Of a stretch of 22,150 nt of DNA, positions 3,015-16,868 are shown one piece after another. The stretch's first letter is position 1; every line of letters starts with the position of its first letter. This stretch comes from a virus: positions 1 through 22,150 of IMG/VR virus record IMGVR_UViG_3300020152_000058. One strand, 5' to 3'. The notes under the pieces are model-generated. The model did not search any database and was not told the DNA's origin. It was given only the letters and a program-made list of their open reading frames with translations. Both the position numbers and the translations under genes were made by a program.

Positions 3015-3127
3015 TTTGCTTTTCCTACCTTCAGTTTGCAGCGTTCATCGTCGGCCAGATCCTCGTTGGCGTGGCCTTGCACGTCATTGAGAAGGTTCGC
3101 GCGGACCGCCGGAAGGCAGGTCAATGA
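3011..3127 (+). CDS. Single-pass small membrane protein, 38 aa
   Basis: Starts with ATGA overlapping the stop of the regulator before it. Residues about 5-24 form one hydrophobic segment (LQFAAFIVGQILVGVALHV) followed by a basic cytoplasmic-type tail (EKVRADRRKAGQ). The core VGVALHVIEK resembles AGIAMHVCKK in the membrane protein encoded on the opposite strand at 3084-3428, whose 3' end overlaps this gene by 44 bases. Function unknown; an inner-membrane superinfection or lysis-related role is possible but unsupported. Confidence 0.5.
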   Translation: MICFSYLQFAAFIVGQILVGVALHVIEKVRADRRKAGQ

Positions 3128-3428
3128 TGCGCTTCAGTGACAAGAGCGCTTGCATGATGGCGCTAAAGACGATTGTCGTTGCCGTGGCCATCGACAGGAC
3201 CATGGCAAATATCAGATCGATCTTCGCAAGCGGATCGTCTCGCCACAGCAAAACAGTCGAGAAGGCGGCCATCATCGCCAAGCACAGCCATGGCGCACCT
3301 TTGTACGCAAGCCGGCTCATCAATTGCGACCGGTTGGGCCAATGCTCATCAATCAGCTTTTTGCAAACGTGCATCGCGATTCCAGCGACGAATAGCCCTG
3401 CCGCAGCGAGCACAGATTCCGTATTCAA
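3084..3428 (-). CDS. Multi-pass small membrane protein on the opposite strand, 114 aa
   Basis: Leftward gene in an otherwise rightward region. TTG at 3428 is the best start because GGAGG lies eight bases upstream; a longer frame to ATG 3470 or 3596 adds proline/arginine-rich sequence with no ribosome site. Three hydrophobic segments are visible: about residues 5-20 (VLAAAGLFVAGIAMHV), 45-62 (LCLAMMAAFSTVLLW) and 68-95 (LIFAMVLSMATATTIVFSAI). The rightward frame across this stretch reads like antisense. The first segment with its charged end resembles the 38-aa protein of 3011-3127, suggesting two related membrane proteins facing each other. Its opposite orientation suggests it is expressed separately from the early genes, perhaps in the lysogen. 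Confidence 0.6.
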   Translation of the reverse strand: MNTESVLAAAGLFVAGIAMHVCKKLIDEHWPNRSQLMSRLAYKGAPWLCLAMMAAFSTVLLWRDDPLAKIDLIFAMVLSMATATTIVFSAIMQALLSLKRIIDLPSGGPREPSQ

Positions 3429-3536
3429 TGTCCGTTCCTCCGGTGGTGGGGTGGGGTCTAGCAACGCCATCGTACCCCGGAGCGAGCGGGCGCCCCAGTC
3501 CCCAACTTGCCCCAAGGTCCCCCTGGGACGGGCTCT

Positions 3537-7434: not shown

Positions 7435-7739
7435 GCAACCTTGCCGACACGCTCTCCTTGCAGCTGCGCGCCGCGAAGATCCCACACATTCGTGAGCCTC
7501 AGTTGGTGCCGGGCCGGAAGTTCCAGACGGACATATTCATCCCTCCGCATCTGGTGATCGAGTGCGATGGCGGAACCTGGAGCGGTGGTCGTCACGTGCG
7601 CGGCCAGGGCGTCGAGGATGACTGCACGAAGCAGAACATGCTCGTAACGCTGGGCTACCGCCCCATGCGAGTAACGAGCAAGCAGATCAAAGACGGCCGG
7701 GCATTGCAGTGGATCGAGCAGGCGATGAGGGTTGCATGA
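7431..7739 (+). CDS. PD-(D/E)XK nuclease-like (VSR/DUF559-type) protein, 102 aa
   Basis: The core motif is seen at D34 (KFQTDIF) and E44-C-D46 (LVIECDGGTW), followed by SGGRHVRGQG and the C-terminal ALQWIEQAM helix. This pattern is shared by VSR- and DUF559-like single-domain nucleases and by small phage proteins often annotated as endonucleases. At about 100 aa it is a single catalytic domain with no DNA-recognition domain. Coupled on both sides by ATGA overlaps. A role in recombination, DNA degradation or resolution is possible; no direct evidence for one. Confidence 0.7.
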   Translation: MSNLADTLSLQLRAAKIPHIREPQLVPGRKFQTDIFIPPHLVIECDGGTWSGGRHVRGQGVEDDCTKQNMLVTLGYRPMRVTSKQIKDGRALQWIEQAMRVA

Positions 7740-8191
7740 ACGCAGTAGCAGCTACGGACTATGACTGGCGTGTTGTCGACTCCATGCTGTGGCAGTGGGG
7801 GCACTGGATCGAGAACCATGCCGAGCAGGCCAGCTATCCAAGCCGGGCTGCAATCGCCGGTGTGATCGACGTGCAAAACCAGTTCAGCTGGTTTCGGGTG
7901 AGGCAGTTCACGGCGAAGGGACACGGCAATCTGATCTTCGGCGGTCACCGCATCTTGTGCCAGGACATGCCCGAGCGGGTCCGGGCAACGAACCTCATGG
8001 TCAATAGGCTATCGGATGAGCAATACGATGCCGTGTTGGCTCAGTATGGGTTGGTGCTGCGACCTGATGGCTTGAGGTTCACCAAAGAGCAAAAGGCCAA
8101 CGCATTGGATATTTCGGTGGAGGCGTTCGAAAGGCGCCTGCGTCGAGCTCGTGAACGCCTGGTAGAAATACTTGCGAATGCGGCGGGCTAG
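7736..8191 (+). CDS. Q-like late-gene regulator candidate, 151 aa
   Basis: Start overlaps the nuclease stop (ATGA 7736-7739). The N-terminal part (10-60) is tryptophan-rich (DYDWRVVDSMLWQWGHWIEN). The C-terminal part (90-150: RLSDEQYDAVLAQYGLVL, FTKEQKANALDISVEAFERR, LRRARERLVEILA) is a sigma-region-4-like helix-turn-helix. This fits some small phage antitermination proteins of the Q type. It is the last early gene, and a promoter candidate and terminator lie immediately downstream, as in lambda pR'-tR'. A plain late activator is the alternative. Confidence 0.6.
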   Translation: MNAVAATDYDWRVVDSMLWQWGHWIENHAEQASYPSRAAIAGVIDVQNQFSWFRVRQFTAKGHGNLIFGGHRILCQDMPERVRATNLMVNRLSDEQYDAVLAQYGLVLRPDGLRFTKEQKANALDISVEAFERRLRRARERLVEILANAAG

Positions 8192-8200
8192 GTATATGTT
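8172..8200 (+). promoter_or_regulatory. Candidate late promoter (pR'-like)
   Basis: TTGCGA (8172-8177) and TATGTT (8195-8200) are spaced by 17 bases, four of six matches each to sigma-70 consensus. The promoter overlaps the end of the Q-like gene. Transcripts would start near 8207 and meet the terminator at 8228-8256 within about 25-50 bases. Not proven. Confidence 0.4.
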
Positions 8201-8227
8201 TTAGAGCACTGGTCAAAGTTATCCCCG

Positions 8228-8256
8228 AACCCCGCCCCCGAGCGGGGTTTTTGTTT
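8228..8256 (+). terminator. Rho-independent terminator before the late genes
   Basis: AACCCCGC (8228-8235) and GCGGGGTT (8242-8249) form an 8-bp stem with a 6-base loop, followed by a T-rich run (8248-8256). It separates the early operon from all rightward late genes. Readthrough would be needed unless another promoter exists in 8257-8342; none is clear there. Confidence 0.9.
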
Positions 8257-8342
8257 TCTGGCCGCTCCCGCCCGTCACTACGACACACGTTGCACATTGA
8301 GTTGCACGAGGCGGACATAGCGGCCGCCCTATTCGGAGCGTT

Positions 8343-8915
8343 ATGCGTAACCCAATCAACCGCGGTGTGATGGTGGTAGGGCTGTGCATGATTGTTGCTG
8401 CCGTGACGATGGCGGCCGAGTCCAATGTTTATTGGCGCGCCGACCTGCATCAGGGCACATCGATCATTGCCTATGGCCAGGGCGCCACGGCTGAAGCAGC
8501 TCTGCAGGACTGCTACCGGCTCCAGGCGATCACCCGGGCGATGACTGCCGCCGAGACTCGCAAGAATGCTGTTGCCGCAGTTACGACGAGCGCCGTTCGC
8601 TGGTGTAACAACGAGAGACGGTATGCAACGGTCAAGCCGGATCCGCCGGATCCGATCAGGGAGGCGGTTCTCTCGTGGACGCCGCCGACCACGAACACGG
8701 ACGACACGTTGCTGACCAACTTGGCGGGCTTCCGCATCAGCTACGGTGCGAGCGCAACGGCGCTGACGCAGACCATCCAGGTGGCCAACCCTGGCGCCAG
8801 TTCATACACCGTGCCGAATCTCGCGCCAGGCACATGGCATTTCACGGTTCGCGCGTACACGAGCAACGGCACGGAGAGCGCGCAGTCGAACGTAGCTTCG
8901 AAGGTCGTGATGTGA
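8343..8915 (+). CDS. Exported fibronectin type III protein, 190 aa
   Basis: N-terminal Sec-type signal: basic start (MRNPINR), hydrophobic core (VMVVGLCMIVAAVTMA), likely cleavage after residue 24 or 25 (MAA). A mature region with two cysteines (C57, C88), possibly a disulfide, is followed by a proline hinge (99-103) and a fibronectin III-like domain at about 107-190 (LSWTPPTTNTDD, FRISYGAS, YTVPNLAPGTWHFTVRAYTS). First gene of the late run; GGAG lies close before ATG 8343. It overlaps the next start as GTGA. Probably acts in the periplasm or at the cell or virion surface. Confidence 0.7.
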   Translation: MRNPINRGVMVVGLCMIVAAVTMAAESNVYWRADLHQGTSIIAYGQGATAEAALQDCYRLQAITRAMTAAETRKNAVAAVTTSAVRWCNNERRYATVKPDPPDPIREAVLSWTPPTTNTDDTLLTNLAGFRISYGASATALTQTIQVANPGASSYTVPNLAPGTWHFTVRAYTSNGTESAQSNVASKVVM

Positions 8916-9187
8916 CGGGCCAGCCCGGCAGACTCCTGACTGCCGAGCAGTCGGTGAGGCTCGCGATGGTGGACAGCATCGAGCGCGAGAAGATGATTGC
9001 GCTCATCGTTGCTGGACTCCAGGACACGGCCAGATTTGGTCACGGCCGTCCTGGTGGCGCCTGTCCGTATGCGTACTACTCGCAGCCGATTCAGCCGGCC
9101 AAGCGCGTACCCACAAACGCCAGCGCCATGACGCCCACGAGGGCGACGCTCCAGGGCTTGAGCGACGCCGGTGGCAGTCGTTTCTGA
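8912..9187 (+). CDS. Hypothetical protein, 91 aa, overlapping the acyltransferase 3' end
   Basis: GTG 8912 overlaps the previous stop (GTGA). The N-terminal half is helical (LLTAEQSVRLAMVDSIEREK, MIALIVAGLQDTARFGHG) and looks like a real protein. The last about 32 residues are antisense to the end of the acyltransferase gene (9091-9187) and look less natural. One explanation is that insertion of the acyltransferase gene replaced the original end of this frame. No family recognised. Confidence 0.45.
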   Translation: MTGQPGRLLTAEQSVRLAMVDSIEREKMIALIVAGLQDTARFGHGRPGGACPYAYYSQPIQPAKRVPTNASAMTPTRATLQGLSDAGGSRF

Positions 9188-10146
9188 TAGCGAGCCCGGA
9201 TCCAGTCTATTGACGGCGTTTCGGCGAGACGGTGCAGGCCATAGGCCAGCAGAATGCTTCCGGTCGCCGCGATCAGAACCGCAGTGACAGCGTGCACCCC
9301 GGCGCTCTCGGCGCGGATCATGAACGTGTACGACAGGTACTCGTGCAGCAGGTATAGCGGGTAGCTGATCGCCCCGAGCCATACAACCGGCTTGGACGCG
9401 AGCGGCCGGAATGATCCGGTAGCACCGACCCACATGATTCCGAGCACGGCGACCGCCCAGAGGACGTGCAGCGTGCCTTCGTCGATGGCGATATCGGCGA
9501 TAGAGAGCGCGGCGATTGCCGGCCACCATCGATGGTCCTCTAGCTTGTTGACGGCAACGTAGACGGCGATCCCGAGCCCGAACCAGGGAATGAAGCTGAG
9601 CAGGCCGAGCTGAGTAACGACCCAGGGAGTTGGCAGAAACTTCGACGCGACGCTCACGAGCAGCCAGGCGCCCAGCACGAGGAACGGCCGGCGCAGCAGG
9701 CCCAAGGTCCACGCAAGAAACATCAGGACGTAGAAGATCAGCTCGACCTTGAGGCTCCAGTAGGCGCCGTTGACGGACTCGACGCGGAACAGTTCGTGGA
9801 ACATCGCGAAGTTCCACAGGACCTGTTTCAGGCTGACCTCGTGGCCCTTGAGAGGCACGAGCGCCAGGATCAGAGCTGTGAGGAGCATCGCGCACCAGTA
9901 CGTCGGATACAGCCGGCTGAACCGGCCGACGACGAAATCGAGCGGCGCCTTGAGATTTCGGAGCGTCAACAAGATCACGAAGCCGCTGATGGCGAAAAAC
10001 AGCTGCACGCCCAGGCCCCCGAAAGGAAGGCTGATCGGCAGTTCGCTGGTATGGCCATAGAGCTGGTCGTAACGCGTCGTGAGGTGAAAGGACATCACGA
10101 GCAGTGCGGCAATGCCGCGCAGTCCATCGATCTGCGTTATTCGCAT
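9091..10146 (-). CDS. Acyltransferase family 3 membrane protein (O-antigen/envelope acylation), 351 aa
   Basis: Signature of the acyltransferase-3 (OafA/YrhL) family: DGLRGIAALLVMSFH at residues 7-21 with the key histidine H21, GGLGVQLFFAISGFVIL at 43-59, and GRFSRLYPTYW at 74-84. About ten hydrophobic segments run through the protein, as expected for an inner-membrane enzyme passing acyl (usually acetyl) groups to surface polysaccharide. The length of 351 aa fits the membrane domain alone, without the SGNH domain of larger members. It is leftward inside a rightward late block, with AAGGA upstream of ATG 10146, and so is likely a moron expressed in the lysogen that changes O-antigen and blocks superinfection. 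Confidence 0.9.
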   Translation of the reverse strand: MRITQIDGLRGIAALLVMSFHLTTRYDQLYGHTSELPISLPFGGLGVQLFFAISGFVILLTLRNLKAPLDFVVGRFSRLYPTYWCAMLLTALILALVPLKGHEVSLKQVLWNFAMFHELFRVESVNGAYWSLKVELIFYVLMFLAWTLGLLRRPFLVLGAWLLVSVASKFLPTPWVVTQLGLLSFIPWFGLGIAVYVAVNKLEDHRWWPAIAALSIADIAIDEGTLHVLWAVAVLGIMWVGATGSFRPLASKPVVWLGAISYPLYLLHEYLSYTFMIRAESAGVHAVTAVLIAATGSILLAYGLHRLAETPSIDWIRARYQKRLPPASLKPWSVALVGVMALAFVGTRLAG

Positions 10147-10193
10147 GGTTATTTGTTTCCTTGTTCCCTGTTACAGGACTTCCCCGCAAGCCG

Positions 10194-10199
10194 ATATTA
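10194..10199 (-). promoter_or_regulatory. Possible -10 box of the acyltransferase promoter
   Basis: TAATAT on the minus strand, about 48 bases before the acyltransferase start, in the 78-base divergent gap 10147-10224. No good -35 is seen at the normal distance, although the T-rich stretch near 10208-10215 could serve. CTGTAACAG, a small palindrome (10169-10177), lies between it and the gene. Confidence 0.3.
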
Positions 10200-10224
10200 G
10201 CCCGGCACCAAACAAAAAATTGAG

Positions 10225-11415
10225 ATGAAGTTCCATAAAACCGCTGTTTTTCTGCTGTCGATATTTCTAACAGCGGCGGCTTGTGCGGGCGTCGTTCTCA
10301 CGACCGGGACGACTTCGTCGGTCGATGCGGTTCCCAACGCGTTCACGTTCACCGATCAGTCCGACGTTGCGACCTCAAGCACGATCACGAGCGCCGCCGT
10401 CACGATCAGCGGCATCGCGACCTCGATTACCTGCTCGGCGACGGGCGGGACGATCGACAAGAACAGCGGCGGCAGCTTTGCGAGCTCGCAGTCCGTCGCA
10501 AACAACGACACGATTCGGGCGCAGCACACCTCCAGCGCTTCGAACTCGACCGCGGTCAATACCGTCGTCGACTGCAACGGCGTCAGCGACACGTTCACGT
10601 CCACCACCGAGGCGGGCGGTGCGTCGGGTGTGTTCTTCGAGCCGGACGTGGATGCAGCGGCCACGATCCTGTCCATGTTCGATGGCTGGAACGGCGATGG
10701 CCTTGCGCCAACGCTCGTTACCGATGTCGCTCGCCCAGGTCACACCCAATCGATCCGGCTGACGTACACAGCCGATGAGGATGGCTATGACCTCATTCTG
10801 GAAGGGGAGAGCATCGGCGGGCAGATGCCTGCGACAACCTCCTTGTTTGTTCGGAGTTACGAGCGATTCGAGGGGCCATGGGAGGGCAACTGGCCTCAGG
10901 GTCTGAAGACCCTACGAATCTTTTCATCAGCAAACCTGATCGGCTGTCAGGACGCGCCGAACAACTACGCATATGTCTCGGAAAAGATCATCTATCCGGG
11001 CTACGACACTTCGCCCGATCCGCGGCTAGAGGACTACGTCACCTCGGGCAGTTGGGCGTATTGCGATCCGGTTGGTGGCCGGCCCGAGATCGAAGCGACC
11101 TACACAGCCGGCCAAGTCTTTGACAACTCGCTGCCGTACATCCGCACGGGTCATTGGTACAAGTGGGAACGCTGGTACGTAATGAACTCCGCGCCAGGCG
11201 CGGCGGATGGGGTGATGCAAATCTGGATCGATGACGAACTGGTCTTGAATCGTACCAACGTCGTTTATCGGTCGAGCTCGCCGAGCATCGTAGGCACGCA
11301 TTGGCAGAGCATGTGGTGGGGTGGGAATTTCTCGAACACGGGCACATTCAACGCGCCCTCGACGCTATATCGATACATCTCCGATCCGTACGCATCGACG
11401 ACGCTGGACCGCTAA
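10225..11415 (+). CDS. Exported Ig-like plus concanavalin-like (lectin/lyase-fold) protein, 396 aa
   Basis: Signal peptide at about 1-22 (MKFHK, then AVFLLSIFLTAAACA). The region about 25-128 is a Ser/Thr-rich Ig-like fold (FTFTDQSD, VTISGIATSITCSATGG, NNDTIRAQHTS). A GG hinge precedes a C-terminal domain (about 135-396) with the look of a concanavalin-like jelly roll: SIRLTYTADEDGY, HWYKWERWYVMN, VMQIWIDDELVLNRTNVVYR, HWQSMWWGGNF. Such folds occur in polysaccharide lyases and carbohydrate-binding proteins; no catalytic set is evident. Divergent from the acyltransferase, with the stop sharing a base with the next start (TAATG). Likely binds or trims surface glycan. Confidence 0.65.
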   Translation: MKFHKTAVFLLSIFLTAAACAGVVLTTGTTSSVDAVPNAFTFTDQSDVATSSTITSAAVTISGIATSITCSATGGTIDKNSGGSFASSQSVANNDTIRAQHTSSASNSTAVNTVVDCNGVSDTFTSTTEAGGASGVFFEPDVDAAATILSMFDGWNGDGLAPTLVTDVARPGHTQSIRLTYTADEDGYDLILEGESIGGQMPATTSLFVRSYERFEGPWEGNWPQGLKTLRIFSSANLIGCQDAPNNYAYVSEKIIYPGYDTSPDPRLEDYVTSGSWAYCDPVGGRPEIEATYTAGQVFDNSLPYIRTGHWYKWERWYVMNSAPGAADGVMQIWIDDELVLNRTNVVYRSSSPSIVGTHWQSMWWGGNFSNTGTFNAPSTLYRYISDPYASTTLDR

Positions 11416-12104
11416 TGCAGTACTTCAAACAGATCGCCGCGGCACTGGTGCTCTCGCTGATTGTCTGCGCGAGCGCCAGTGCGACGACGGCAACCGGCGA
11501 GTTTGCTTTCAACTTTGCCACGCAAGGTAACGAGAACCCGTTCGTCGATGCGAGTTTCACGGATCGGCTGGCAAGCGATGCGCAGATCAGTGGTGGCTTG
11601 CTGACTCAGGTGGGCTTCGCGCATTACCTCGTCGCATACACCGGCGGCACATACGACGGCGGGTCAATCACCGCATCCGTAGAGGTGGATGCAACCGCGG
11701 TGGACGATGAGGTTCTGGTCGGTGCGCTGGACGAGAACGGCGATGGCTTCATGCTGGAGATCAGCCCGACAGCCGTCTTTGTGCTGGTCTACACCGCGTA
11801 CGCCGTTGTCGATAGCGTCGGCACCGCATCGATCACATTCACTGCGGACGACTTGTTTGAATTCACCCTAACCAAGGGCTCGCCGAACACGTACAGCGCC
11901 ACTCAGAACGGCACGCCCATCACGCTATCGCAGTCCAGTGAGGCTAAAACGCTGGGCACGATGGAGGCGGTGTGGGGTTTCAATGTCGGCAACGCGGGGC
12001 TCGGCACGATCCAGTCGCTGGCCGTGGTGGATGGGTTGAGTGTCGGCGGTGGCGGCGGTTCGGCTGCCGCTCGCGCTGTGCATCACAAACGGCTGAGGAA
12101 TTGA
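11415..12104 (+). CDS. Exported hypothetical beta-rich protein, 229 aa
   Basis: ATG 11415 overlaps the previous stop (TAATG). Signal peptide at about 1-23 (QIAAALVLSLIVCASASA). The mature part is beta-rich and low in lysine (TATGEFAFNFATQG, SITASVEVDATAVDDEVLVG, FTADDLFEFTLTKGSP, AVWGFNVGN), with the look of a jelly-roll or laminin-G-like domain. It ends in a glycine run and a basic tail (AAARAVHHKRLRN). Similarity in layout to the lectin-like protein upstream suggests a surface or virion-surface role. No named family. Confidence 0.6.
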   Translation: MQYFKQIAAALVLSLIVCASASATTATGEFAFNFATQGNENPFVDASFTDRLASDAQISGGLLTQVGFAHYLVAYTGGTYDGGSITASVEVDATAVDDEVLVGALDENGDGFMLEISPTAVFVLVYTAYAVVDSVGTASITFTADDLFEFTLTKGSPNTYSATQNGTPITLSQSSEAKTLGTMEAVWGFNVGNAGLGTIQSLAVVDGLSVGGGGGSAAARAVHHKRLRN

Positions 12105-12105
12105 G

Positions 12106-12903
12106 ATGATCCGAAAGAATAGCGTTCTTCGCCGGCCGTTCTATCGTGCCCAATGGGCCGTCCTCTGCCTGCTGTCGCTACTCGCTGCGGTACCGACACA
12201 TGCAGATTGCGTGCTCCGTCAGAGCGATGCAGTCGAGCTTCCTCTGGGTCAATTCGTCGACGCGACGGACGGAGTCACCGCCGAAACGGGATTGACCATC
12301 AGTCAGGCGGATGTTCAGTTGAAGAAATGCGCCGCCGCTGGCGATTGCGGGGCGATGGCTCAAAAGAGCGATACGAGCGCCTGCGCCCACGATGCGCTAG
12401 GCGTGTATGAGTGCGACCTCAACGCCACCGATACCGACACGGTCGGAACATTGTTCATCTACGTCAACGAATCCGGCGCACTCACCGAGCGCGCGGTGTG
12501 CCAGGTTGTCGAGGAGGCTGTCTTCGATGCGTGCTGTGCTGGCAGTTCCGCGCCGCTGACGGCTGCGGGTGTGTGGTCGAACGGCACGCGCTCGCTAACC
12601 GAGCTCGACGAAGACAATACGACTATCGACATCAATGGCACGGCCACGGGTGCTGCGGCCTCTGTTGCGGGCACGGTCAATGGCCTGACAGCAACGGCTC
12701 AAGGGAACGTTCGGGATGCGCTCGGCATGAGTGCGGCAAACCTCGATACGCAGCTGTCTGGCCTGGATACGCTGCTCGACACCATCGCGGCGTACATCGA
12801 CACCGAAATTCAGACGCTGCTGAACGGCGTCGACATTGAGAGCATCAACGATGTGGCCATCACCGGAGATGGCTCTGGCACGCCGTTCACCGTCTCGCCC
12901 TAA
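12106..12903 (+). CDS. Exported virion-type protein, 265 aa
   Basis: N-terminal signal about 1-33 (basic MIRKNSVLRRPFYR, core WAVLCLLSLLAAVPTHA). The mature part starts with a beta domain (LRQSDAVELPLGQFVDATDG, LTISQADVQLKKCAAAGDCG, ALGVYECDLNATDTD, VGTLFIYVNESGAL) like those in tail or neck proteins of siphophages that bind near LPLG-type segments. A C-terminal helical segment follows (DTQLSGLDTLLDTIAAYIDT). Cysteines are frequent (eight or more), fitting disulfides in the periplasm. Stop abuts the next start. A signal peptide on such a domain is unusual. Confidence 0.6.
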   Translation: MIRKNSVLRRPFYRAQWAVLCLLSLLAAVPTHADCVLRQSDAVELPLGQFVDATDGVTAETGLTISQADVQLKKCAAAGDCGAMAQKSDTSACAHDALGVYECDLNATDTDTVGTLFIYVNESGALTERAVCQVVEEAVFDACCAGSSAPLTAAGVWSNGTRSLTELDEDNTTIDINGTATGAAASVAGTVNGLTATAQGNVRDALGMSAANLDTQLSGLDTLLDTIAAYIDTEIQTLLNGVDIESINDVAITGDGSGTPFTVSP

Positions 12904-13302
12904 ATGAAACTTCGTCTCGGAGCGCTTACTTTCCTGGCGCTCTACATTCCAACAGCGAATGCCAGTCTCGAGGAAGACGGCGTATGGGCTGCTGGTGTGT
13001 GGGCGACAACCGTCTGGGCTGACGGGGTATGGCTAGAGGGCGAAGTCTCAGCAGTCTCGGTGCCGGATCTTGCTGGCATGACTGAGGTGGAAGCAGATGC
13101 GGCACTTGAAGGCGTGGGTCTGGACACCGGGACTGTATCGACGGTGTGTTCAGCGGCGACGGCCGGCGATGTGGTGAGCCAGGCTCCGCCGGCAGGCGCA
13201 GCGGTCGCACCCGGATCGCTCGTCAATATCGCGTTGAGCAGCGGCACTCCCTGTGTTGGCGCTGGCGGCAAACTGAAACTCAGACTGGACTTGAGGCTAT
13301 AG
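12904..13302 (+). CDS. Exported PASTA-domain protein, 132 aa
   Basis: Signal about 1-20 (LRLGALTFLALYIPTANA). Residues 27-44 repeat GVWAAGVWATTVWADGVW, a Trp-rich motif. A PASTA domain follows at about 51-114: VSVPDLAGMTEVEADAALEG, then VGLDTGTVSTVCSAA, then VVSQAPPAGAAVAPGSLVNI. The VPDL-G-MT-EA, Q-P-AG and PGS-VNI motifs are all present. PASTA domains often bind peptidoglycan. A cysteine pair (C82, C117) could form a disulfide. It is coupled directly to the preceding gene. Likely acts at the cell wall; exact role unknown. Confidence 0.75.
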   Translation: MKLRLGALTFLALYIPTANASLEEDGVWAAGVWATTVWADGVWLEGEVSAVSVPDLAGMTEVEADAALEGVGLDTGTVSTVCSAATAGDVVSQAPPAGAAVAPGSLVNIALSSGTPCVGAGGKLKLRLDLRL

Positions 13303-13304
13303 CC

Positions 13305-13688
13305 ATGCGGTTGAAAGCATTGCTGATCGGGCTGCTCCTGTGTGTCACCGCGGGGGCAGCCGTCGAAGATTCGGGTACACACGTCCGTTACTACGGCACC
13401 GGTGCCAATGACAATGACGTGCTGTTCACGACCGGGGACATCTCCCGGTACGACGCATGCACCATCATGTCAACGGATGGCGCGGTCGACGTATTCGTGA
13501 GCCTGGACGGCACGAACTACGCCACATCCGCGCTGAGTCTGCAGGACATGGGCGCGACTGCGACAGATCCGGTGCTGGTGACGGCTGCCGATCGCGTTTA
13601 TGGCTTCGTGGTGAAGGCCCGACGCATTCGAGTGCTTCAGAACGGCGCGACCGCCGCATCGGCTTCGATGCTGTGCTGGAAGCTGTAG
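13305..13688 (+). CDS. Exported small beta protein, 127 aa
   Basis: ATG 13305 follows the previous stop by two bases. Signal about 1-19 (MRLKALLIGLLLCVTAGA). The mature part is beta-rich (THVRYYGTGANDNDVLFTTG, ACTIMSTDGAVDVFVSLDGT, DPVLVTAADRVYGFVVKARR, IRVLQNGATA) and resembles small phage decoration or head-fibre type folds. Two cysteines may pair. No family recognised with certainty. Confidence 0.55.
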   Translation: MRLKALLIGLLLCVTAGAAVEDSGTHVRYYGTGANDNDVLFTTGDISRYDACTIMSTDGAVDVFVSLDGTNYATSALSLQDMGATATDPVLVTAADRVYGFVVKARRIRVLQNGATAASASMLCWKL

Positions 13689-13690
13689 CC

Positions 13691-13903
13691 ATGAAGCTGA
13701 CCGTGACACTTGATGATGGGAGCAGCGATCCCGTCACCTACGCAGTGGAAGCACCAGTCGGAACCGATTGGAAAACCATGCTGGACATGGTCGAGGGGGT
13801 GCTTAGGTTGCGAGGACACATCGAGGCTCCGGTGATTTACTCATCCGGGCAGGGGTTCCGGCCCGGTGAAATTGTGTGGCTGAAGGAAGCCGCAGAGGGG
13901 TAA
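13691..13903 (+). CDS. Small hypothetical protein, 70 aa
   Basis: ATG 13691 lies two bases after the previous stop; its stop shares a base with the next start (TAATG 13901-13905). Beta-rich at the N-terminus (KLTVTLDDGSSDPVTYAVEA), with an aromatic centre. It lacks a signal peptide. No family recognised; coupling to the small terminase suggests a late structural role. Confidence 0.6.
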   Translation: MKLTVTLDDGSSDPVTYAVEAPVGTDWKTMLDMVEGVLRLRGHIEAPVIYSSGQGFRPGEIVWLKEAAEG

Positions 13904-14439
13904 TGGTTGTGAGCAACGAGGCCCAGGAGACTCGGCCGAATGAGGGCGGCAGACCGAGCGGGTATTCCCAGGAGCTTGCTGACCGCATCTGTTCAGAGCT
14001 TGCTGAGGGGAAGTCACTGCGGACTGTGTGCAAGGGCGAAGGGATGCCAAGCACACAGACGGTGTTCCGCTGGCTCAGGACTCACGAAGGGTTCTGTGAC
14101 CAATACGCGCGGGCAAAGGAAGAATCAGCCGACGCGATGGTCGATGAGATCCTGGATATCGCTGACGACGCTGCGAACGACTGGATGGAGGTCCACGATA
14201 AGGACAATCCGGGCTATCGGCTGAACGGTGAGGCCATCAATCGTTCGCGGCTGCGAGTCGACGCGCGGAAATGGATCGCATCGAAGCTCAAGCCGAAGAA
14301 GTACGGCGAGAAGGTGGCCGTTGGCGGTGCAGACGATCTGCCACCGGTTCAGACCGCCGACATGACCGAGGTGGAAGTGGCGCGCCGGATAGCGTTCGCA
14401 CTCCAGAAGGGCGCACAGGCGCAGGAGAAGACGCACTGA
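13903..14439 (+). CDS. terS: Terminase small subunit, Sf6-like, 178 aa
   Basis: The segment at about residues 17-85 (GRPSGYSQELADRICSELAE, GKSLRTVCKGEGMPSTQTVF, RWLRTHEGFCDQYARAKEES) has the GKSLxxVC...P...T...RWL pattern of the Sf6-type terminase small subunit, including its helix-turn-helix DNA-binding region. A helical oligomerisation region (ADAMVDEILDIADDAANDWM) follows. The C-terminus (after 130) is a charged linker probably meeting the large subunit. Start at ATG 13903 with AGAGGGG upstream. It recognises the packaging site on phage DNA and directs the motor. Large subunit is at 15273. Confidence 0.85.
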   Translation: MVVSNEAQETRPNEGGRPSGYSQELADRICSELAEGKSLRTVCKGEGMPSTQTVFRWLRTHEGFCDQYARAKEESADAMVDEILDIADDAANDWMEVHDKDNPGYRLNGEAINRSRLRVDARKWIASKLKPKKYGEKVAVGGADDLPPVQTADMTEVEVARRIAFALQKGAQAQEKTH

Positions 14440-15272: not shown

Positions 15273-16868
15273 ATGACGCAATTGCTTGACGACATCCTCG
15301 GCCGGCTGAATTCGCTGCCGGCTAAGGAGCGTCAACAAGTCACACAGGATGCATTGGATGCAACCAAGGACCTGCGATGGATTCCTAATCCGGGTCCACA
15401 GACCGATGCCTACTTCAGCGAGGCTGACGTGCTGCTGTTTGGCGGTGAGCCGGGCGGCGGCAAGAGCCAACTTGTGCTTGGGCTCGCGTTCAACTGCCAT
15501 GAGCGCGCACTCATCATGCGCCGGCAGTACACGGACTTGGATGCGCTCACGGAGGAGGCCATCAAGATCAACGGCGGCCGTGATGGATTCAACGGCTCGC
15601 CGCCGCCGAGTCTCAAGCATCCGAAGGGCCGAATCGATTTTGGCGCTGCCGCTCGCCCCGGTGACGAGCAGCACTGGATGGGGCGTCCGCACGATTTGAT
15701 TGCGTTCGACGAGGCGACGCAGTTCTCAGCCAAGCAGATTCGATTTCTTCGTGGCTGGCTGCGCACAACGACTCCCGGCCAGCGAACTCGGACGATCCTC
15801 GCGACGAACCCGCCACTTTCGGCCGAGGGGCTGTGGGTGTTCGAGATGTTCGCGCCTTGGCTGAACCCGCAGCATCCGAATCCGGCCAAGCCGGGCGAGC
15901 TGCGATGGTTCGTTGTGGATGAGCACGACAAGGACATCGAGGTCGACGGGCCGGGTACGCATGTCGTCAACGGCAAGGCGTACGAGGCTGAGTCGCGAAC
16001 GTTCATTCCGTCGAAGATGACGGACAACCCGCAACTGGATCACAAGGACTATCAGAAGCGCCTCGACGCGCTGCCTGCCGAGATCCGCGAGATTCTGATG
16101 GGCGGATTCCGTGCTTCGTTCAAGGATCAGGAGCGGCAGGTCATCCCGACCGCCTGGGTCAAGGCTGCTCAGGACCGGTGGACGACGAAGCCGCAGCACA
16201 ACGTTCCCATGTGCGCGATGGGCGTCGATGCGTCTGGAGGGGGCAACGATCCGATGGTGATCGCGTCTCGTTATGACGGCTGGTATGCACCGATCGTTAG
16301 AGTCGAGGGCAAGGACATTCCTGTCGAGCGGATCGGCAAGCATTGCGCCGGTATCGTGGTTTCACACCGGCTGCACAACGCAAAGGTCATCGTCGATATG
16401 GGTGGCGGCTATGGCGGCCCGCTCTACGAACAGCTGATTGAGAACATCGGCGGCGAAAGCGTCGCAGGCTACAAGGGCGCCGAAGCTTCGACGCGCAGGA
16501 CAAAGGACCAAAAGCTCGGCTTCTGGAACAAACGAAGCCAAGCCCTCTGGCAATTCCGTGAGGCGCTCGATCCCTCGCAGGAAGGCGGCAGTCCGATTGC
16601 GCTCCCGCCGAGCAACACGCTGCTCGCGGATCTGACTGCGCCGACGTTCGAGGTGACTCCTCGCGGCATCCGTGTGGAGTCGAAGGAAGACGTGACTGAG
16701 CGCCTTGGTCGCTCGACCGACGAAGGCGATGCGGTCGTGATGGCCTGGTACGACGGCGCTCGAGCAATGACACACGCAGGCATCTGGACGAAAGAGATGG
16801 GGCGGGCTGGCCGCACCCCGAGTGTGAGCTACGGCCCGAGGCGGCCCAAGGGCATGAGGAGACATTGA
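15273..16868 (+). CDS. terL: Terminase large subunit, 531 aa
   Basis: An ATP-powered packaging motor and nuclease. Walker A is seen as GGEPGGGKS (57-65), Walker B as DLIAFDE (141-147), and the coupling motif as LATNPP (176-181). The C-terminal RNase H-like nuclease domain begins near residue 314 (MGVDASGGG with D319) and continues with VIVDMGGG (D375) and STDEGDAVVMAWY (D486), the three likely metal-binding acids. The length of 531 aa is normal. It starts two codons after the structural gene's stop and ends as TGATG with the next gene. Cuts the concatemer and translocates DNA into the prohead through the portal. Confidence 0.93.
   Translation: MTQLLDDILGRLNSLPAKERQQVTQDALDATKDLRWIPNPGPQTDAYFSEADVLLFGGEPGGGKSQLVLGLAFNCHERALIMRRQYTDLDALTEEAIKINGGRDGFNGSPPPSLKHPKGRIDFGAAARPGDEQHWMGRPHDLIAFDEATQFSAKQIRFLRGWLRTTTPGQRTRTILATNPPLSAEGLWVFEMFAPWLNPQHPNPAKPGELRWFVVDEHDKDIEVDGPGTHVVNGKAYEAESRTFIPSKMTDNPQLDHKDYQKRLDALPAEIREILMGGFRASFKDQERQVIPTAWVKAAQDRWTTKPQHNVPMCAMGVDASGGGNDPMVIASRYDGWYAPIVRVEGKDIPVERIGKHCAGIVVSHRLHNAKVIVDMGGGYGGPLYEQLIENIGGESVAGYKGAEASTRRTKDQKLGFWNKRSQALWQFREALDPSQEGGSPIALPPSNTLLADLTAPTFEVTPRGIRVESKEDVTERLGRSTDEGDAVVMAWYDGARAMTHAGIWTKEMGRAGRTPSVSYGPRRPKGMRRH

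Follow-up and report, generated by a model that had tools for sequence, protein, structure and literature searches.

Why would a tailed phage equip a run of neighbouring, apparently late genes with signal peptides? Tailed phages are thought to assemble in the cytoplasm, exporting only lysis proteins and the products of single conversion genes, and are not known to export a whole late gene block. The question is raised by the stretch of DNA analysed here, the window, which is the whole of IMG/VR virus record IMGVR_UViG_3300020152_000058 (22,150 bases), and for which a sequence-only reading had described six phage late genes in one block, each beginning with a Sec-type signal peptide. According to our analysis, the phage opens its late operon with a run of small, signal-bearing proteins of sugar-binding type, and thus seems to export some of its late products from the cytoplasm ahead of lysis. 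The reading that we favour, to which we give slightly better than an even chance, is that the block (10225-13688 together with the gene at 8343) is a late cassette whose products would be exported through Sec, oxidised in the periplasm, and released at lysis, acting on envelope or matrix glycans. The literature searched, in full text and with partial coverage, contained no account of a whole block of this kind with a correlated exported or non-exported state across relatives; this absence is weak evidence.

Phage type and packaging genes

The window contains a repressor, replication genes of the O/P type, a Q-like gene, a terminase, a T7-like head-tail adaptor, and a major head protein, and stops short of any lysis genes. 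In our reading, it is part of a temperate phage whose packaging genes are BPP-1-like. The terminase small subunit (TerS, 13876-14439, plus strand) is of the Sf6 type (PF20901, 154 bits), and the large subunit (TerL, 15273-16868, plus strand) is BPP-1-like, being about 40% identical to TerL of Bordetella phage BPP-1, Acidovorax AP1, and Limnohabitans DC33. Since not only TerL, but also the T7-like head-tail adaptor or portal and the major head protein are of the type found in these phages, the window belongs with the BPP-1-like podoviruses. In contrast to the window, however, no comparable signal-bearing block is visible 5' of the terminases of BPP-1, AP1, and DC33.

A host search with TerL in genome contigs returned four distant relatives, two of which, from Chelativorans (L023) and from a betaproteobacterial MAG (L025), were examined closely and showed no clear block. 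The search of 369 genomes (the class of G001) with a profile of the protein encoded at 13305 gave no match and, lacking a positive control, is uninformative. The TerL of L025 (L025:8108-10774, 888 aa) lies in a prophage-like region, and its insert after GGEPGGGKG resembles an intein.

Architecture of the block

Genes are named here by the position at which they begin. Genes 10225 (10225-11415), 11415 (11415-12104), 12106 (12106-12903), 12904 (12904-13302), and 13305 (13305-13688), all on the plus strand, are tightly packed from stop to start, whereas gene 8343 (8343-8915, plus strand) is parted from them by an acyltransferase gene on the opposite strand (9091-10146). The clean run therefore comprises five genes, with 8343 standing apart from it. 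Between the block and the terminase, gene layout and signal scoring place a small gene without a signal (13691-13903, plus strand).

Of the domains proposed initially, fibronectin type III (FN3) in 8343 (PF00041, 29.3 bits, cut-off 25) and PASTA in 12904 (PF03793, 47.3 bits, cut-off 23.2) were recovered, whereas the supposed lectin-like domain corresponds to a match to Polysacc_lyase_14 (PL14) in 10225 that stays below threshold (24.4 bits, cut-off 27). The 10225 protein is described here as an Ig-like N-terminal domain followed by a polysaccharide-lyase-like C-terminal domain. Gene 12106 encodes an Ig-like, Cys-rich N-terminal domain followed by a coil, and 13305 encodes an XepA/YomS-like jelly-roll domain with Cys52 and Cys124. 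The 11415 protein, which looks rich in beta structure, is unclassified: the family scan matched it to no family, and BLASTP gave a weak match to L026:5546 (E 4e-4). As for the envelope acyltransferase that had been seen as embedded in the block, it is indeed an O-acetyltransferase of the acyltransferase 3 type (PF01757, 93.9 bits, cut-off 31; phrog_3333). However, it lies on the opposite strand and is probably an independent conversion gene.

Family scans returned no toxin or Bor match, and the scan for tail and baseplate families gave only weak local matches, to the FN3 domain of 8343 (E 0.03-0.04). No Pfam family matched 13305 at E values up to 1. Among known phages, there was no match to 13305, to 10225, or to the signal-less homologue in L004, and the only match to 12106 came from a Microcystis phage. 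A pattern search of viral contigs for close relatives of 10225 found none, and none were found for the PASTA gene 12904. The gene just 5' of the 13305-type gene ends in a motif that is alike in the window (13261-13302, GAGGKLKLRLDLRL) and in L107:3300 (GAGGRLRLWLRVGL), and a similar stretch, GEGRLKLRLDLRI, is present near the end of L105:3544.

Signal peptides

The six N-termini were scored with a home-made von Heijne-type weight matrix combined with rules for the n- and h-regions, calibrated on a likewise self-compiled set of 42 known E. coli signal peptides. The resulting scores (16.7 for 8343, with the cut after residue 24; 13.3 for 10225; 14.4 for 11415; 14.5 for 12106; 10.0 for 12904; and 12.2 for 13305) all fall inside the range of the 42 known signal peptides, 9.5-21.5, and all six proteins display the hallmarks of Sec/SPI substrates: a basic n-region, a hydrophobic core, and an A-x-A-type cleavage site. 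The claim of Sec-type signal peptides on the six proteins is thereby confirmed. The remaining window proteins scored together with them reached 1.2 at most, and in a fuller gene list this value was exceeded only by the polytopic acyltransferase (9.3) and by a small minus-strand gene at 3084-3470 (6.5). No transmembrane segment was counted in the mature part of five of the six proteins, the sixth, 11415, having one borderline hydrophobic stretch that the filter did count.

In related phages, 3 of the 832 called genes downstream of TerL score as signal-bearing; with alternative starts permitted, the count is 11 of 719. These background rates rule out a chance origin of the six signals. Mis-called starts were likewise discarded, as the signals of the window hold with the called starts and, among the relatives, only L105:3544 and L107:649 needed an upstream one. 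Neither do the proteins look like lipoproteins: no clear lipobox was recognised by eye, the sequence ...LTAAAC of 10225 being a poor one. The scorer is nonetheless imperfect, since several lone matches upstream of TerL in relatives (single ones in L023, L030, L062, L063, L068, L070, L071, and L082) resemble false positives.

Genomic position and timing

Upstream of the block lies a gene for a Q-like late regulator (7736-8191, plus strand), which has a weak match to the phrog_79 antitermination family (E 0.008, with the longer ORF 7709-8191) and homologues in L007 and L026, where they also precede the corresponding region. It is followed by a hairpin with a T run (8227-8250, plus strand) that resembles an intrinsic terminator; L007 and L026 have similar hairpins behind their Q-like genes, and L004 has one in the corresponding position. 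The order is therefore Q-like gene, terminator, block, and small terminase gene. We take the arrangement of Q-like gene and terminator to be the lambda pR'-tR' layout of late lytic genes, and because of it late lytic expression would be the natural conclusion; it is from this gene order that we infer the timing of the block.

This position bears on the proposal that the block and the O-acetyltransferase constitute a lysogenic-conversion kit, decorating or remodelling the surface of the lysogen for adhesion, biofilm formation, or superinfection exclusion. The export signals, the adhesion-type domains, and the acyltransferase gene lying among these genes would fit such a role, and so would the position of the lambda conversion gene bor, which is near this genomic place. 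However, 10225-13688 run head-to-tail in a late operon behind the Q-like gene and the terminator, the only sigma-70-like match within 7900-14000 is one of 9/12 at 8970-8997 (shuffles give 1.7), and neither an outer-membrane anchor nor a clear lipobox was seen. Mainly because of the late-operon position, display by the lysogen seems distinctly unlikely to us. Of the surface-remodelling or adhesion set that had been suggested from the sequence, the export and the adhesion- or glycan-type domains thus find support here, and display by the lysogen less so.

Lambdoid phages encode exported proteins in the interval from Q to the lysis or terminase genes, the examples being the Shiga toxin subunits of Stx phages and Bor of lambda. 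The block resembles them in genome place and in its Sec signals. The Stx subunits are in addition under late control, contain disulfides, and are released by lysis, all of which is proposed here for the block as well. Contrary to these systems of one or two genes, the block consists of five to six adhesion- or glycan-type proteins, and its families have signal-less homologues in sister phages.

Fold of the 13305 protein

The 13305 protein was modelled with AlphaFold2 as a monomer, from an alignment of 22 sequences, with a mean pLDDT of 87.5 and low confidence in the first 20 residues, which contain the signal. The model, confident only from about residue 19-20, consists of one domain with strands between residues 19 and 125, arranged in an antiparallel beta-sandwich of the type of the XepA C-domain. 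In VIA-align comparisons, it matched XepA with a Z of 12.1 (99 residues, 2.4 A, 8% identity) and YomS with 11.9, the next rows being at 8.6, so that structure prediction and fold search, the check proposed for the block proteins, assign 13305 to the XepA/YomS fold (Z 12). For 12106, only the N-terminal beta-sandwich of the model is usable, and its matches are generic Ig-like folds.

XepA (PBSX) and YomS (SPbeta), which have this fold in common with 13305, come from prophages of Bacillus subtilis (PDB 6i56, 6i5o; PMC6834076). XepA is a phage late protein found outside the cell (PMC6834076, PMC1266369), as the 13305 protein would be if its late timing and export hold. It is reported to be exported during phage development and to be absent from mature particles, and has been proposed to support lysis through membrane depolarisation (PMC6834076). 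However, XepA is listed among the extracellular proteins without a classical signal, that is, as non-classically secreted (PMC1266369), and has two linked beta-sandwich domains, whereas the single-domain 13305 protein, with its possible Cys pair, begins with a classical Sec signal. Gene 13305 belongs to a signal-bearing block just 5' of TerS, and not to a lytic or tail cassette or its vicinity, as would be expected of an XepA/YomS gene; a pentameric disc would be expected of this type as well, the model of 13305 being that of a monomer.

The fold of the 13305 domain might thus suggest that the block is a set of lysis helpers, acting by membrane depolarisation as proposed for XepA, and the place after Q, which is the lysis position in lambdoid phages, would agree with this. 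Contrary to this suggestion, 13305 has a single domain like YomS, which alone was not cytotoxic, while the cytotoxicity of XepA needs both of its domains (PMC6834076). Furthermore, the near-complete L031 phage, which has a comparable signal-bearing block, encodes its endolysin-like, holin-like, and Rz-like genes elsewhere. A helper function in lysis is therefore highly unlikely in our judgement, and the possibility that the block is the lysis cassette itself was rejected on account of the location of these genes. The L031 phage also encodes, after the lysis-like genes, a protein with a strong signal peptide (L129:5192-5605, score 19).

Homologues with and without a signal

Comparison of the same region in related phages, which have counterparts of 13305 a short way 5' of TerS, revealed block homologues both with and without a signal. 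In the 13305 family, a signal is present in the window, L021, L105, and L107, placed exactly N-terminal to the conserved domain, and absent from L003, L004, L005, L041, L106, L108, L113, and others. The N-terminal domain of 12106 is preceded by a signal in the window, L007, and L105, and lacks it in Microcystis phage L015 and in L091. Other pairs of signal-bearing and signal-less homologues are L031:7640 and L005:2485, and the FN3 protein 8343 and L004:2398; the N-terminal domain of 10225 has a signal-less homologue in L026:7677, and L031:6053 is a phrog_644 protein preceded by a signal.

Judging from these sequences, the signal state tends to be common across a block and to vary within homologous families. 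Neighbouring genes have a signal in 9 of 12 cases at signal-bearing 13305-type anchors, compared with 4 of 57 at signal-less ones (Fisher p 2e-6, which ignores relatedness and overstates the evidence, since the signal-bearing 13305 homologues are possibly of one origin). All block genes are signal-bearing in L031 (4/4) and L007 (3/3). The L026 block is mixed, with a signal only on its first, FN3-type gene, as if this gene moved on its own, and the neighbour gene in L021 (421) has none.

The cysteines vary along with the signal. The mature proteins contain two in 8343, four or five in 10225 (depending on the cut), none in 11415, eight in 12106, and two each in 12904 and 13305, so the statement that several of the proteins are cysteine-rich applies mainly to 12106. 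In the column of C52 of 13305, Cys is present in 3/4 signal-bearing homologues versus 0/18 signal-less ones (p 0.003, common descent being ignored and the evidence overstated for the same reason as above), whereas its possible partner C124, the older Cys, is found in 4/4 and 8/18, respectively. L105 and L107 additionally possess a pair of N-terminal Cys that none of the 18 signal-less homologues has. Counting against this line of evidence, the L107 protein has three Cys, and 11415 lacks them altogether. The N-terminal domain of 12106 has 4-8 Cys in its signal-bearing members and 0-1 in the aligned signal-less L015 and L091; between 12106 and its L007 counterpart, the mature domain is 84% identical and the signal peptide is different. 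Proteins that reside in an oxidising periplasm would be expected to gain pairable Cys along with a signal, and the location of the signal exactly before the domain, plus the gain of Cys in the exported versions, provides evolutionary evidence that the export is real. Several block proteins may accordingly carry disulfides, for which these Cys are candidates.

The main rival to the release of the proteins as such is that they serve as appendages of the virion or decorations of the capsid; having matured in the periplasm, they would bind to the particles only once lysis brings the two compartments together. The existence of signal-less homologues at the corresponding locus of related phages implies a function compatible with cytoplasmic assembly, and keeps virion joining after export in play, given that these homologues are presumably cytoplasmic. 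The signal state is, in addition, correlated across the block, as if its products cooperated, and one signal-less block protein locally matches a "major tail protein" profile. The 13305 fold is also similar to the HFTV1 turret, though with a Z of 7.9 that lies inside the background, as many unrelated chains score alike. However, mature particles reportedly lack XepA (PMC6834076), the closest match by fold, no virion-protein profile confidently matched the signal-bearing proteins of the window, and the L031 phage has tail-fibre-like as well as lysis-like genes outside its block. We regard attachment to the virion as a serious possibility, albeit on balance a doubtful one. A broader version would see in these blocks a recurrent class among tailed phages, in which proteins of structural type take the Sec route together, acquire periplasmic disulfides, and join the particles during lysis, with whole blocks swapping between the cytoplasmic and the exported state in evolution. 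This joint reading, in which virion-type proteins would mature outside the cytoplasm, seems rather unlikely.

In the TerL tree, signal-bearing blocks occur in three places, and well-supported branches force at least two changes of state; L007, outside this terminase set, also has a signal-bearing block. The 13305 tree, on the other hand, does not reject a single signal-bearing clade (p-AU 0.34), and this compatibility makes cassette exchange and repeated gain indistinguishable.

Proposed mechanism and related systems

In the late-cassette reading that we prefer, antitermination by the Q-like protein past the terminator at 8227-8250 would turn the block on together with the other late genes, after induction or infection. 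Each block protein would then pass through the host Sec translocon and be cut by signal peptidase I, and the Cys of several of them would pair in the oxidising periplasm. Until phage lysis freed them, the FN3, Ig-like, polysaccharide-lyase-like, PASTA, and XepA/YomS-like proteins would build up there. Outside the cell, they would most likely bind or loosen envelope or matrix glycans, helping the progeny to escape and to reach new cells, a role suggested by the domain types, with the PL14 match being sub-threshold. The signal peptides, the operon layout, the 13305 fold, and the gain of signal and Cys relative to signal-less homologues are read directly from sequences and model; actual export, the disulfides, release at lysis, and the glycan role are what we infer from them.

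The nearest known systems are XepA/YomS, for fold and export, and the exported genes beside Q in lambdoid phages. The block provides a context for other late proteins that are exported, among them XepA, a protein of unsettled function. Together with the families of sister phages that lack the signal and the partner Cys, it also forms a natural contrast in which to ask how a phage benefits from exporting late proteins before lysis.

Runs of signal-bearing genes in L007, L011, and L012 indicate that the phenomenon is wider than the window. Such runs of signal-peptide genes were also seen in L009, and some of these phages have "LTELDEDNTTIDLNGT"-type stretches like that of 12106. In L012, the signal-peptide genes adjoin a cell-wall-hydrolase-like gene. 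Finally, two different phages have, at L008:3031-4379 and L009:9766-11071, a patatin-like gene immediately downstream of a small gene whose product has a signal-like N-terminus.
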